This document shows positions 425-11,967 of a stretch of DNA of 64,000 nt, piece after piece. This DNA is from an uncultured bacterium (GTDB lineage: Bacteria; Planctomycetota; UBA1135; UBA2386), in the NCBI GenBank assembly GCA_937906475.1, contig CALCZA010000085.1, positions 1 through 64,000 on the forward strand, read 5' to 3'. The notes beneath the pieces are model-generated. The model did no database searches. It was not told where the DNA came from and was given only the letters and a program-made list of their open reading frames with translations. The first letter of the stretch is position 1. Every line of letters starts with the position of its first letter. Both the position numbers and the translations under genes were made by a program.

Positions 425-2290
425 GTGAACCACCGTTCTCCTCTTGACTGTTTTGCGTTGCGCTCGGCGATGCTGATTGTGTTGTTGGCCGCCTCCGCGG
501 CCGCCTCCGCGGCAGCTCAGTGCCTGCAAGTGGCCGGCACCTCCATCGTGCCGCTGATGGCTGCGACATCCGCTTTGCCCGTGGATGATGAGAGCCGCAG
601 CATAGACATGGCGTTTGTTGGCTTTACGTTCCCGATCGGCGGCAGCAATTACACGCACTTCGTCGTCGGGTCGAACGGCGAGGTTTACTTGACCGATGGC
701 ACAGGTGTCGTCGATCCCGCCCAGTTTGGGGTGTCGACCCTCGCCGAGATGCGTGGAGTTGCCGGGGCGTCGCCGCGTGTCATGGCGGTCAGCGGTGATC
801 TGGTTGCGAGTCTTGGTGCGCCGACCTGGGACATTCTCGTCGACGACTCGCAGTTCGGTCAGGTGCAGATTACGTGGCTTTCTGTGCGCACGTGGTTTTC
901 GTGGCCGACGTTCTCGATGGCTGTCACGCTGTTCTTATCGGGGGACGTGCGGTTGGACTACGGTGATGGCGATTTCAGCCGTGTTGCATGGGGCTACCAC
1001 GCGGGTGTGTCGGCGGGCAATGCCGTGGGCACCGGATTGGAAGTGTCGAGCGACTTCAGCAGTAATGCGGACTCTGGTGCGTTGCCACTGTTGTTCGAGG
1101 AGGGCTGGCAGCCATTCGACTTGCGAGATCGTTCGGTGTTGTTGACGCCCAACGGCAATGGTGGCTACTCGTCCTCGGTCACCTGTGGCTTGGCGTATCA
1201 CGAGAGCTACGGCGAAGGTTGCTACGGCGTCGGCCATGAGTCCTTCTACCAACAATTCACCGATGCGGCGGTTGCTGCGAGCACGTTGACCGGCAACGCC
1301 ATGGTGATGACGCCGACTACTGGTGGCTACGGGGCTGTGTGGTTACCGAACGCGGCGGTGTCGCTCTATATGCCGCCAACGACTGCGGCGGTTGCGATGC
1401 CGGTTGGCAATGATGGGCAGGTGACGCAGGCGTTATCCGTGCCGTTTCCGCTGCCCAGCGCGGTTGTCAACGAATTGACCGTGCACGGTAATGGCATCAT
1501 TGGCTTTGGTCCGGGGCCTATCGGTCCTTCTTCGCAGAACTGGTTGCCGCAACCGGAGCGCATGATGGCGGGCGCGCACGGCGGCATCTACTGCTGGCAC
1601 GCTTACAATGCGGATGAAGGCGGAGAGGTGTGGTTTGAAGAGTTCGCGGGAGTGAGTTGCGTGACGTTCTTGGACGTCGAGAACTTTCCGCTGACGCTCG
1701 TCAACCCGAGCACGTTTCAGATCCAGTTCCATCACGCGGCGGGCGCGATCATCTTTGTGTTCGTCGATATCGATTCGGACAACACGATGATTTACACCAT
1801 CTATCCGCAAGACCACATCATTGGCTACACACCACCAGGTGAATCGGTTGATCCGGGTGGAGTCGATTTCATGACGCCGTTGCCGGTGTTCACCATGCCT
1901 GACGTGAAGGCGCTGAAGCTGAGTGCGGCACCGGATCCAATTTCGTCGCCAACGGCTGGCTCGACGGTGGTCTACACGGTGGACCACGCGCTCGAACTGA
2001 TGCCCGGAACGGGAATGGCTGTTGGGGTGGTCGCGTTCAGCTTGGTCAGCGTGCCGTCGTCCGGCCTCGCAATCATTGGGGCGCCGGACTGTGCAGCGTA
2101 CGTTGGGCTGTTTGGCTTAACGCTGTCGTTTGTCGGGACGCTTGGCGCACAGCATGTGCCGCTCGTATTGCCGCCTGGTTTGCCGCCGGGCACCGTGATG
2201 TATGCGCAGGCGGCGTCACTATCGCTCGGCGTCAACGCCGCTAACTTGATCACGTCGAACGCTGTCGAGAGCGTGATCTCGGTCAACTAG
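425..2290 (+). CDS. secreted hypothetical protein with a planctomycete-type C-terminal beta domain
   Basis: 621-aa ORF, hydrophobic Ala-rich signal peptide, long coherent extracellular-type sequence. Confidence 0.8.
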   Translation: MNHRSPLDCFALRSAMLIVLLAASAAASAAAQCLQVAGTSIVPLMAATSALPVDDESRSIDMAFVGFTFPIGGSNYTHFVVGSNGEVYLTDGTGVVDPAQFGVSTLAEMRGVAGASPRVMAVSGDLVASLGAPTWDILVDDSQFGQVQITWLSVRTWFSWPTFSMAVTLFLSGDVRLDYGDGDFSRVAWGYHAGVSAGNAVGTGLEVSSDFSSNADSGALPLLFEEGWQPFDLRDRSVLLTPNGNGGYSSSVTCGLAYHESYGEGCYGVGHESFYQQFTDAAVAASTLTGNAMVMTPTTGGYGAVWLPNAAVSLYMPPTTAAVAMPVGNDGQVTQALSVPFPLPSAVVNELTVHGNGIIGFGPGPIGPSSQNWLPQPERMMAGAHGGIYCWHAYNADEGGEVWFEEFAGVSCVTFLDVENFPLTLVNPSTFQIQFHHAAGAIIFVFVDIDSDNTMIYTIYPQDHIIGYTPPGESVDPGGVDFMTPLPVFTMPDVKALKLSAAPDPISSPTAGSTVVYTVDHALELMPGTGMAVGVVAFSLVSVPSSGLAIIGAPDCAAYVGLFGLTLSFVGTLGAQHVPLVLPPGLPPGTVMYAQAASLSLGVNAANLITSNAVESVISVN

Positions 2291-3999
2291 CGAATGATAA
2301 ATGACTGGTGCGTGCCCAAACGCAGGCCAATGGTCGTGCTCGAGCCGACCGCTTGAAGGTAGAGGCGCAGGCCCACGAGTCCGATGTCCGCCGGCAGCAA
2401 GTAGGGAAGTTGACCATCGCCACTGGCATCGCACTGGACCGAGCCAAGGTAGACGCCGAGGTTCGGGTCGATGCGCAGGTCGCCATACGTGCCCAACGGC
2501 AGCGGCGTGATCAGTTCTGACCAACTCATGAAGCAGTCACACAACTGGTTCGCTTCCCATTCGATGTCAATTACACCGGCGTTGCCGTTCTGGAAAGCGC
2601 TCTCCTGGCTGGAGACCAGCACGACGGGGCCGGGGATGGTCGGTTCCTTGTCAGAAGCATCCGGCACGTTGTCGTTATCGAAGTCGCCGGTGTAGTTGAC
2701 GAGCGTCATCATGCCGAGCGACATGTGCATCATTTCATGGCAGTGGTAGAGCCACGCGCCGGGGTTGTCAGCAACCCATTGTGCCGACCACGCATCACCG
2801 GGTTGGCCCGATGGCATGATCAGGATCGTGTCCATCTGCGGTGCGTGCGTCGTGCCACCAGCCGTGCCCATCAGCCGCATGAAGTGGCCGTGCATGTGCA
2901 TCGGGTGGATGTGGTTTGGCGATGGCGTGCTCGTCGACAGGTTGAACTGGATCGTCTCGCCGTAGGTGACTTGCGCCGGGGTGATGATCGGCCACGACTC
3001 GCTATTGATCATCCACGAGCCGCTAGCAACGCTCAGCGCAATCGGGTACGTGCGGTCTGGCGTGGCGGAAATCGGCGAAGGGTAGTAGCTGGCGAGTTGC
3101 GCGTAGCTCATCAATGCGCCACTCGACAAGTTGCTCGGCACAGTTGACGGTGCCGGATCCGGGGCGGTTTCGCCCGCGTAGCGCAACACGCCGCGCACGA
3201 GGTTGGCGTTACGGTTTTGGATTGTTGAGACCGCGAGGCTCCAGACCCCGGGGTTGTTGCAATTGACGAGCACGTCGTAGCGTTCGCCAATGCCGATCGG
3301 GATCGCGTCGGTGACGGTCGGCTGCATGCGCTGGCCGTCCTTGTGGGTCACCGTCATCGGGTGGCCGTCGAGCGCGATGATGTAGTTCGTGCGCGCAGCG
3401 ACGTTGATGAAGCGCAAGCGCAGCGTTTGGCCGTTGTTGATCGAGAGTGCTGTCTGGCCATCGCTGGTCTTGCCGTTGAGCAAGTGGCCGTAGTAGGTGC
3501 CGCCGGTGATCGTCGGATCCCAGTCATCGAGCACGATGATCTCTTCGACATCAGAGGCAGGGTCGGGCGCGGTGCTCGGTGGGTCGACGATCAACACACC
3601 GTGCAGGCCAGAGTTGAGTTGGTGGTGCTGATCGCTGTGTGGGTGATACCAGTAGGTTCCGGCCGCTAGATTGTCGAACTCGTAGGTGAACTCTTGGCCG
3701 TTGGCGATTTCCGGACGCGAAATGTTCTGGATGCCATCCATGCCGAGTCGCACCGGTTGGCCGTGGGCGTGCAGGAGGGTGGTTACGCCGAGTTGGTTGG
3801 CGAGTCGCAAGCGCAGCGTGTCGCCGACGGTCACGCGAATGACCGGGCCCGGTAGGGTGCCGCCGTAGAGTTGGGCCGGTTCGCTTGTGTATCCAGGGCC
3901 GAGGTCGACGACGCCCGGAGCGGCGGTCAGGTCGACGCTCACGATGGATTGCGCGACTAGTGAAGTGGTTAGGAGACTGAGAGTGATCCAGACGCGCAT
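2287..3999 (-). CDS. multicopper oxidase (cupredoxin, CotA/bilirubin oxidase-like)
   Basis: 570 aa with copper motifs LLHAHGQP, YWYHPHSDQH, HPMHMHGHFM and WLYHCHEMMHMSLGM; signal peptide; extra C-terminal region. Confidence 0.93.
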   Translation of the reverse strand: MRVWITLSLLTTSLVAQSIVSVDLTAAPGVVDLGPGYTSEPAQLYGGTLPGPVIRVTVGDTLRLRLANQLGVTTLLHAHGQPVRLGMDGIQNISRPEIANGQEFTYEFDNLAAGTYWYHPHSDQHHQLNSGLHGVLIVDPPSTAPDPASDVEEIIVLDDWDPTITGGTYYGHLLNGKTSDGQTALSINNGQTLRLRFINVAARTNYIIALDGHPMTVTHKDGQRMQPTVTDAIPIGIGERYDVLVNCNNPGVWSLAVSTIQNRNANLVRGVLRYAGETAPDPAPSTVPSNLSSGALMSYAQLASYYPSPISATPDRTYPIALSVASGSWMINSESWPIITPAQVTYGETIQFNLSTSTPSPNHIHPMHMHGHFMRLMGTAGGTTHAPQMDTILIMPSGQPGDAWSAQWVADNPGAWLYHCHEMMHMSLGMMTLVNYTGDFDNDNVPDASDKEPTIPGPVVLVSSQESAFQNGNAGVIDIEWEANQLCDCFMSWSELITPLPLGTYGDLRIDPNLGVYLGSVQCDASGDGQLPYLLPADIGLVGLRLYLQAVGSSTTIGLRLGTHQSFIIR

Positions 4000-4118: not shown

Positions 4119-5105
4119 GTGTCTGGCTACGCTGTCTCGGTGGTTACCGAACACTTCTATCCGGCGATTGAGCCATTCGCGTCTGGTGAGCTAGAGGTCG
4201 ATGCGCCGCACGTCCTGTATTGGGAGCAGTGCGGCAACCCCGACGGCGAGCCAATACTGTTCTTGCACGGTGGGCCGGGTGCTGGTTGCACCGATGCCGA
4301 TCGGCGGTTCTTCGATCCCGATCACTTTCGCATCGTGTTGTTCGATCAGCGCGGTTGTGGCCGCTCGCGTCCAGTTGGTGAACTGTCGGGCAATTCGCCT
4401 CAGCACCTAATTGATGACATCGAACGTCTGCGAGCGCAACTCGGAATCGAGACGTGGCATGTGTTTGGCGGTTCGTGGGGCAGCACGTTGTCGCTGTTCT
4501 ATGCGCAAGAACATCCGGAGGCGGTTCGCACGCTGACGCTGCGAGGCATCTGGTTGTTGCGGCAAGAAGAACTCGACTGGTGGCTTTACGGCATGCGCAT
4601 GATCCAGCCGGAGCGTTGGAACACGTTTGCCGAGCAGATCCCGGCGGCCGAACGGCACGATCTTCTCGAGGGCTATTGGAAGCAGTTCCAAAGTGACGAC
4701 CGCGAGTTGGCGTTGCAGGCTGCGTCGAAGTGGGCGATGTATGAGATCTCCAGTTGCACGCTGTTGCCCAACCCTGAGTTCTCGGCGCTCTTTGAAGTTC
4801 CCGATGTCGCGTGGGCGGTCGCGCGGTTGGAAGCGCACTACTTCCGCAACGTGCGCTTCGATCCAGATGATCGATTGCTGCAGCGAGTTGATCGCGTTCG
4901 TTCGATCCCGGCGTTCATTGTGCACGGTCGCTACGACATTATTTGCCCGATCAAGAGCGCCGTCGACTTGCACGCCGCGTGGCCGGAGTCGTCGCTGGTG
5001 ATTGTCGATGACGCTGGTCACTCGTCGCACGAGCCGGGTATCGCCAAAGAGTTGGTCGCAGCAACCAAGCGCATCCGCGACTTCGGCAGTCCGGCAGTTC
5101 GGTAA
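4119..5105 (+). CDS. pip: proline iminopeptidase (alpha/beta hydrolase, S33)
   Basis: LYWEQCGNPDGEPILFLHGGPGAGCTDADRRFFDPDHFRIVLFDQRGCGRS and nucleophile GGSWGS; true start may be at VTEHFYP. Confidence 0.92.
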   Translation: MSGYAVSVVTEHFYPAIEPFASGELEVDAPHVLYWEQCGNPDGEPILFLHGGPGAGCTDADRRFFDPDHFRIVLFDQRGCGRSRPVGELSGNSPQHLIDDIERLRAQLGIETWHVFGGSWGSTLSLFYAQEHPEAVRTLTLRGIWLLRQEELDWWLYGMRMIQPERWNTFAEQIPAAERHDLLEGYWKQFQSDDRELALQAASKWAMYEISSCTLLPNPEFSALFEVPDVAWAVARLEAHYFRNVRFDPDDRLLQRVDRVRSIPAFIVHGRYDIICPIKSAVDLHAAWPESSLVIVDDAGHSSHEPGIAKELVAATKRIRDFGSPAVR

Positions 5106-5112
5106 CGAGTCG

Positions 5113-6402
5113 CTATTTCGGGTCCGGTTTGGGCTTCGGCCCGGCAACCCACTTCACGCCATACATGTTGATGAACGTCGGCGCGACGCGGTAGCTCTCG
5201 TCCGCCAGTCGCAGCAAGAACCCGATCTGGTGGATGCTGTTTGGCTCATCCTTGGCGCGGCCGTTGAACGTCGTACGACCTTGGCGTTCGCCGGTGGCGA
5301 CCAGTTCGAACGACGTGAAGCGCTCGGTGTCGCGATCGAACGTTGCCTTGCCAAATATCTCGCAGTTTAGAAACCGCGGAAACTCGCCCTTGGGCTTCCA
5401 GTAATTGTCGTCATCGATCCATGGCCCTTTTGCCGTGGCCTTGCTGTGGCCGGTGATCTCGATGTCGACAAACGAACCGCGAATGGCGAGCACCTTGCTG
5501 CGCAGACCGCCGCCTTGTAGTTCGGCTCGCGCATATGGCAGTGTTTGGCCGCGCACGTTGTCGACGAACACGAACCGCGCCAGTCGTTCGAGCAGACGCG
5601 GGCTCACATCGGCTTCGGCACCAGTCTTCGCATCTGGCAACCAGCCCTGCAGTTCTTGCCCGCTAAACCAAACGGTGTCCCGGTTGACTGGCGCACGTTG
5701 CGGGTCGCGCGGGTTGTCGCCGATGTCGCGTGCGAACCTTTCGAGCACGAGGCCTGAGGTTGGGTAGCTGTCTTCCCATCGATGAACGGGTTGCGGTGCA
5801 TCTACGGCAACTTGGCTGCGTTCGGTGTCGCTCATCGATTCCCACGTAGCTATTGCCTTCGTCAGAACCTTGAGCACGTGGTCCGGGTTGGCGGAGTTGA
5901 TCCGGCCAAGCAAGTGACCTTGTGGCGTGATCACATACGTGCCTTGCATCGATCCCCGCACTGGTTCGGTATCACCCCGCACTGCCGTGCGGAACCAGCG
6001 GCACTCGGGGTCGTCGTCGCGCTGCAGTCGCCACACTTCATCGGCGGCGCACGCGAAGTTCGATGTCATCGCGAGGATGCGTTGGTTGGACCAGACGGAC
6101 CGCCTGGCCTGCACGCCGTTACCTCAAGTGCAGCCGAGTGGGTGGCCGTTCATCAGCCACAGGAGCATCGGACGGTTTTGCTCGGTGGCTGCTTTGAAGC
6201 CAGCCGAGATCGAGTCGTGCCAGTCGATCTGTAGCCATCGATCCTCGTCCGCGCGTGGTGCGATGTGGTCGCGCCACGCGGCAATCGTCGTTGCAGACAC
6301 CTGCGCTCGCGTCTGCGGTTCATCTTGCGGGGGCGCGACTAGCAGATCTGGAACGGTTGGTGGGGTTGCCGCCGCGGCCAGACTCAGAACGAATGCGAAC
6401 AT
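5113..6402 (-). CDS. candidate selenoprotein: secreted thioredoxin-fold-like protein with in-frame TGA (Sec) at codon 93
   Basis: ORFs 6124..6402 and 5113..6114 are in the same frame with TGA at 6124-6126 as the only intervening stop; readthrough gives ...RPMLLWLMNGHPLGCT-U-GNGVQARRSVWSNQRILAMTSNF...GTYVITPQGHLLGRI...; SECIS-like hairpin follows. Confidence 0.72.
6089..6109 (-). promoter_or_regulatory. candidate bacterial SECIS hairpin
   Basis: mRNA-sense GGCCAG-GCGGUCCGU-CUGGUC, starting 15 nt after the TGA; 6-bp stem (one G-U), extendable by three pairs (one G-U) around a GUC loop. Confidence 0.55.
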
Positions 6403-11424: not shown

Positions 11425-11967
11425 ATGAGTCGTCGAACCCTTGTCATCCTGGTCGTTCCCCTAGCACTGATGGCCGCCTACTTCGGCGTCATGAGCTATT
11501 ACCGTGCGCACGTCACGGATTTGATCCAACACGCCGTCGACAACCCGTTGCCGGACTTCCAGTTGGTCGATCTCGATGGCAAGCAATGGAGTAACAAGGA
11601 CCTCGCAGGCAAACGTGCTGTGCTGCACTTCTTTCGATCGCATTGCCATTCGTGTGATGTGGAGGCTCCGGCGATTCGCGAACTGGAGAAGGGCAGGCCG
11701 GCCGACGTTGTGTGGCTACACGTGATGACCGATGTCGTGCTCGATGTGACGCCCGCAACGACTGCCGCGACCATCGCCCGCAAGCAGTTCACCGAGCCGA
11801 TCTTGATGGCGGACGTGCCCTTCGTGGAGTTGTTTCACAAGGCCAAGTGGGCGAAGGTGACGCCTGTTACCTACGTCGTCGATAAGACCGGCATCGTTCG
11901 CTACGGACTGCGAGGTATGCAGGATGCGGCGACGATTCGGCAAGCGATTGGCGCGGTTGGTGGCTAA
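11425..11967 (+). CDS. TlpA/redoxin-like membrane-anchored thioredoxin protein
   Basis: N-terminal TM, PDFQLVDLDGKQWSNKDLAGKRAVLHFFRSHCHSCDVEAPAIRELEK with CHSC motif. Confidence 0.88.
   Translation: MSRRTLVILVVPLALMAAYFGVMSYYRAHVTDLIQHAVDNPLPDFQLVDLDGKQWSNKDLAGKRAVLHFFRSHCHSCDVEAPAIRELEKGRPADVVWLHVMTDVVLDVTPATTAATIARKQFTEPILMADVPFVELFHKAKWAKVTPVTYVVDKTGIVRYGLRGMQDAATIRQAIGAVGG

Follow-up and report, generated by a model that had tools for sequence, protein, structure and literature searches.

An apparently undescribed selenoprotein family of Planctomycetota with a predicted thioredoxin fold and no cysteine form among the homologs sampled

A gene of an uncultured planctomycete, which annotation would normally render as a pair of broken fragments, almost certainly encodes a single protein in which UGA is read as selenocysteine (Sec). 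It lies in the window, that is, the whole stretch of 64,000 nucleotides that was analysed. Taken as a whole, the best explanation of the locus, in which we place high confidence, is an exported, two-domain selenoprotein of an undescribed family, in which a redox-active Sec would be inserted under the direction of a SECIS element.

One reading frame across an in-frame UGA

Two open reading frames on the minus strand share a frame: one of 92 aa, which runs from an ATG at 6402 to 6124, and one of 333 aa, which runs from an internal GTG at 6114 to 5113. The TGA at 6126-6124 is the sole stop between them, and the ATG at 6402 is imposed by in-frame stops upstream of the selenoprotein gene. Read-through gives a product of 429 residues that ends at a TAG and has U93 in NGHPLGCT-U-GNG; the residues around this position are PMLLWLMNGHPLGCT-U-GNGVQARRSVW. 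Coordinates and translation bear out what the initial annotation had described here, namely the two reading frames with their ends and the internal GTG, the shared frame, the lone TGA, and the length of 429 aa. Its core proposal, a thioredoxin-like Sec protein, likewise agrees with the sel genes, the conserved TGA, and the fold support given below. The features of the locus are as follows.

5113..6402, minus strand: complete predicted selenoprotein gene, 429 residues, Sec at 93, stop TAG (frame, homologs, alignment A1)
6340..6402, minus strand: probable short signal peptide MFAFVLSLAAAATPPTVPDLL, with presumed export (sequence; hydrophobic N-termini of homologs)
5833..6240, minus strand: predicted thioredoxin-fold domain, about residues 55-190, with Sec at the N-terminus of helix 1 (AF2, Foldseek; sub-threshold Pfam Thioredoxin_7)
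6127..6132, minus strand: codons of Cys91-Thr92 before Sec, giving a C-T-U motif (Cys at -2 in 70/89 and at -1 in 8/89 Sec rows)
6124..6126, minus strand: in-frame TGA, the probable Sec codon U93 (aligned TGA in 97/110 distinct site-covering homologs)
6089..6109, minus strand: putative bacterial SECIS-type hairpin GGCCAGGCG-GUC-CGUCUGGUC, apical loop at 6100-6098 (pairing, codon choice)
5128..5760, minus strand: conserved C-terminal domain, predicted to be beta-rich, about residues 215-425 (alignment A1; low-confidence AF2 strands)

The protein had also been called secreted. The 429-aa frame behind that claim stands, and the signal peptide of the window copy is plausible, yet short and without a basic n-region. 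The N-termini of homologs resemble signal peptides, some with a lipobox-like Cys (e.g., L128 and L039).

The window's genome, a 4.85-Mb draft in 254 contigs that is 94% complete, encodes the whole set of Sec genes that the initial annotation had named as a check and that is expected of a bacterial selenoprotein: SelA (388 bits, 5.9e-116), SelB (339.9 bits, 647 aa), a tRNA-Sec (70.8 bits, above the Rfam cut-off; ARAGORN anticodon TCA, i.e., UCA), and SelD. The selD gene adjoins selA (L001 2629-3762, G000:C228) and has an in-frame TGA of its own, in GUAAK. Since this is the usual Sec site of SelD, UGA is apparently used as Sec elsewhere in this genome. The same TGA would lead a gene caller to set the start of selD too late. 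Across the phylum-wide sample described below, SelA was found in 88 of the 91 genomes with a TGA-bearing homolog versus 184 of the 301 others (Fisher p = 7e-13, uncorrected for kinship); the three exceptions (G308, G262, and G216) are fragmented drafts.

Homologs and the residue at the Sec site

We searched 61 genomes, the window's own and 60 relatives, and found a homolog in 28; the best match, in G020, covers query residues 37-422 at 55% identity (E 1e-146) with one TGA inside. Among 392 genomes drawn evenly from Planctomycetota, 125 contain a match (E <= 1e-3) and 91, among the matches listed, a TGA-bearing one. Matches occur in 78 of 154 genomes of the window's order (E <= 1e-8) and in 23 of 29 genomes of another class, where every one has the TGA among the matches listed. 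Full-length homologs are about 25-55% identical, and roughly between a quarter and one third of the sampled Planctomycetota genomes have one. Nearly all full-length matches have exactly one in-frame TGA, at the aligned position. The TGA is therefore kept at the same codon across planctomycete homologs, as the initial annotation had anticipated and as expected of a bacterial selenoprotein. Two further paralogs with the same TGA lie on contigs C139 and C28 of the window's genome. Phylum coverage comes from genome searches within Planctomycetota; beyond the phylum, a narrow scan of genome contigs with a single protein returned two close relatives only. No match was found among viral contigs.

As the window comes from a 254-contig draft, one might suspect that an ordinary Cys or Trp protein has acquired its TGA through a sequencing error or a recent pseudogene mutation. 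This is vanishingly improbable: in most of about 100 distinct homologs, which belong to many families of planctomycetes, the same codon is TGA and both flanks are conserved; neither Cys nor Trp stands at the site in any homolog; and a lone error or pseudogene is excluded by the 28/61 and 125/392 matching genomes, whose proteins align across the TGA near full length.

No recurrent gene set hinting at a substrate was found in the neighbourhoods of homologs; the recurrent clusters of neighbouring open reading frames that we inspected are apparent shadow frames of the gene itself or near-identical flanks of close relatives. In the window, the gene lies near genes for a multicopper oxidase (2287-3999, minus strand), an alpha/beta hydrolase resembling proline iminopeptidase (4119-5105, plus strand), and an AhpC/TSA-type redoxin (11425-11967, plus strand); we did not see this arrangement again next to homologs.

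Around the site, the homologs share the consensus W.MNGHPL(G/A)CTU(N/G)NG, with GQTU, GHTU, GRTU, and GATU as rarer forms and G.CU in distant branches. Neither -2 nor -1 is Cys in 11 of the 89 Sec rows. In the divergent homologs L110 and L111 (G067, G117) and L112 and L114 (G236, G122), which read GYVUGNG, GVCUTAA, and GVCUAAG, the Cys has shifted from -2 to -1 or has been lost.

Cys-containing homologs are usual for bacterial selenoproteins, though they are not a strict requirement. Here, the 110 distinct sequences that cover the site have U in 97, S in 9, D in 2, T in 1, P in 1, and C in 0; at three of the S calls and at the P call, the motif is wholly rebuilt and the exact letter depends on the alignment. 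The search model took U as C, so that Cys forms were favoured rather than penalised. The Cys homologs that the initial annotation had expected are therefore absent from the sample, where members without Sec show Ser, Thr, Asp, or Pro instead.

According to a FastTree phylogeny of 83 sequences, built with the trait columns excluded, Sec and non-Sec states interchange four times, with the non-Sec rows embedded among those that have Sec. The non-Sec rows comprise a clade of family f5 (Ser, Thr, and Asp), L101-L103, L098, and L104. Among the genomes of non-Sec members, a SelA match is absent in G225, G153, G338, G497, and G499 and present in G041, G060, G414, G493, G498, and G500. Unrelated residues at the site had been named beforehand as evidence against a selenoprotein, and some do occur; because they are few, nested within a Sec-bearing tree, and partly found in selA-less genomes, we read them as losses. 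The most likely scenario given our tree is that Sec is ancestral and has disappeared on about four occasions, in no case giving way to Cys.

Cys relatives exist at the superfamily level; none was found among two-domain members. L143 (G069:C13), a distant one-domain relative with ...TQVCLGG... whose genome lacks a SelA match, may carry Cys at the corresponding position, as judged by residue spacing. The Sec-only status applies to the Planctomycetota-centred sample that was searched. We give roughly even chances to a stronger reading, in which the family is ancient, phylum-wide, thioredoxin-fold, and obligately Sec based: its chemistry would be impossible with Cys, and lineages that lose Sec would drop the redox centre, replacing Sec with Ser, Thr, or Asp and often losing the neighbouring Cys as well.

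The search also met other candidate selenoproteins. L137 (G369:C18) and L139 (G036:C40) represent another thioredoxin-like type with an in-frame TGA, in ...GRLD(D/E)..(C/A)UTNAR.AR.VLFS...; L137, the one of the two that was compared with NCBIfam, reaches the cut-off of no model, and the type is possibly another undescribed family. The thioredoxin-like L138 (G468:C304), with a TGA in DPACDVULGAQTFR, and L143, with Cys in TQVCLGGRATR and no SelA match in its genome, form a candidate Sec/Cys pair. A further TGA-containing thioredoxin-like protein, L062 (G049:C322), reads LGSLSGFLUSAGQSLRG and has no NCBIfam match at E <= 1.

A SECIS-type hairpin, the predicted fold, and the proposed chemistry

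In bacteria, the apical loop of a SECIS lies 16-37 nt from the UGA, with a G in the first loop positions and a G[G/U] pattern (PMC13188914). The window hairpin has 9 bp, begins 14 nt after the UGA, and places its loop 23 nt after it. By subfamily, the loop stands at +18/19 (CGUGC), +22/23 (GGUC), or +31 (GGUC), always inside the 16-37 nt limits; these offsets differ though the protein alignment there is almost gapless. In the +18 group (A4, 15 sequences), covariation is strong: 92% of the cells are paired versus 31-45% when the register is slid, and the 17 doubly changed cells were reached in 0 of 500 shuffles. The +23 group (A3, 32 sequences) has 82% paired versus 21-55% slid, and its covariation shows no clear excess over shuffles.

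A folding-energy test with synonymous codon shuffling gave a mean z of -0.54 versus -0.26 for control windows (p = 0.01). In GC-rich DNA, generic minimum free energy with codon shuffling is too coarse a measure to pick out so short a hairpin; therefore, we relied on pair counts and codon choice instead. In the main group, the Arg at U+8 under the loop is encoded by CGG or AGG in 30 of 31 sequences versus 28% in the rest of these genes, and the Ser at U+9 by TCN in 29 of 29 versus 57% elsewhere. Codon choice under the apical loop is independent support for the putative hairpin. A SECIS-type hairpin with an apical G, as expected of a bacterial selenoprotein, is thus found, with weaker signals in the energy test and in the A3 covariation.

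These results bear on the idea that the UGA is a programmed stop, is read through in a regulated manner with a standard amino acid, or has been generally reassigned. Homologs with Ser, Thr, or Asp exist, so some function dispenses with Sec. Even so, the idea is very improbable given the full Sec machinery with a Sec-type SelD in the genome, the hairpin with its conserved apical G after the TGA, and the co-occurrence of the TGA-bearing form with SelA. In the preferred reading, SelB and tRNA-Sec would read the UGA at codon 93 under the direction of the downstream SECIS within the coding sequence.

The N-terminal half very probably adopts a thioredoxin fold. Thioredoxins have their nucleophilic Cys at the start of the first helix. 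An AF2 model of this domain, built from a 3-sequence alignment (pLDDT 66, pTM 0.68), has a thioredoxin-like order of strands and helices and places U93 in the loop that leads into the first helix; a model of the whole protein from 3 sequences reached pLDDT 50.7, and the Sec loop has low confidence in both. Foldseek hits with the domain model include UAS, a Thermus thioredoxin, AGR2/AGR3, DsbH, ERp18/19, and DsbD-C, and are overwhelmingly thioredoxin folds among those shown. A sequence search of the PDB with the family profile gave no match at E <= 1. The predicted model therefore has the redox residue where a thioredoxin-fold protein would, in line with the earlier suggestion that the TGA falls at a redox position.

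We propose that the N-terminal domain is of the Thioredoxin_7/DsbH/AGR/UAS type and has Sec at the thioredoxin nucleophile position, usually preceded by a Cys at -2. It would act in thiol/selenol redox chemistry of the cell envelope: Sec would attack, and Cys91, where present, could close a selenenylsulfide. An envelope location for such a selenol enzyme is what the fold and the signal-like N-termini together suggest, and we regard a redox enzyme in the envelope as somewhat favoured. The 11 of 89 Sec rows without a Cys at -2 or -1 indicate that not all members have a simple redox centre of two residues; in these, a partner would have to supply the resolving thiol, unless Sec plays another part. 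In this scheme, the computations show the frame, the conserved TGA, the Sec machinery, the constraint on the hairpin, the approximate fold, and the lack of a Cys form in the sample, whereas insertion of Sec in the cell, export, redox activity, and a substrate are inferred.

Alternatively, Sec may serve in metal or selenium binding or delivery, or in structural anchoring. The lack of strict conservation of a resolving Cys and the fact that Sec gave way to Ser, Thr, or Asp and not to Cys would suit a non-redox role of this kind, to which we assign a minor but substantial probability; in contrast, redox chemistry is favoured by the predicted thioredoxin fold, in which Sec occupies the canonical nucleophile position, and by the Cys that 78 of 89 Sec rows have at -2 or -1.

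Significance and relation to known families

The locus adds a phylum-wide selenoprotein family whose gene is cut in two by standard gene calling, and it suggests that the planctomycete selenoproteome is under-counted. Homology routes to selenoproteins depend on Cys homologs, which creates a blind spot: the authors of deep-Sep state that filtering may remove families without such homologs, which appear to exist for all known selenoproteins (PMC12013277). With Sec, Ser, Thr, Asp, or Pro at the site and no Cys, the family makes a long-standing question directly testable, namely whether there is chemistry in which sulfur cannot replace selenium. If the obligate-Sec reading is true, this family would offer the clearest exception known to the view that every selenoprotein has Cys homologs and would explain why pipelines based on Sec/Cys pairs miss it.

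Within the open literature, NCBIfam, Pfam, and a 2026 catalogue, the family is apparently undescribed, as the initial annotation had claimed. The window protein has no NCBIfam (June 2026) match at E <= 10, and it scores 14 bits against the gathering cut-off of 27 of Pfam Thioredoxin_7 (PF13899), to which 10 of 36 members show weak matches at E <= 0.1 (best E 0.0047). A 2026 review catalogues 119 prokaryotic selenoprotein families (PMC13188914), none of which fits by domain model (Pfam/NCBIfam) together with the CTU-type motif.

The family could instead be a divergent branch of a described one, VPGUxxT or Trx7/PDZ. VPGUxxT (NF041383/NF041382, hypothetical protein OS_HP5) shares a thioredoxin-like domain of the Thioredoxin_7 kind, whose N-terminal redox residue is Sec or Cys and occupies a comparable position; 5 of the 36 members give weak matches to NF041383 (best E 8.6e-4). 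Yet these matches fall far under the curated cut-off of 275 bits (L057, 11.7 bits), a VPGU motif stands in place of GCTU[NG]NG, and the C-terminal part is different. Moreover, VPGUxxT has Cys forms, and the window's genome encodes one separately: L066 (G000:C118) is a true NF041383 member (318.6 bits) that reads EIPGCDTC. Trx7/PDZ (NF041199) has a Thioredoxin_7-type domain that carries Sec, with a CxxU motif according to its catalogue entry, and no member of A1 is among its listed matches at E <= 1. With cut-offs unreached and both motif and C-terminal domain different, we rejected membership in either family, and a distant branching from them is improbable.

The thioredoxin-like selenoprotein Sec.1 (PF13192) also has a CxU motif in a thioredoxin fold, according to its catalogue entry, and differs in length and domain make-up; no family protein matched PF13192 in the Pfam search. 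Finally, Thioredoxin_7 (PF13899) and the DsbH, AGR2, and UAS proteins resemble the new family in predicted fold and in the position of the redox residue; in contrast to them, the new family has no CxxC, and its Sec is paired with a Cys at -2.
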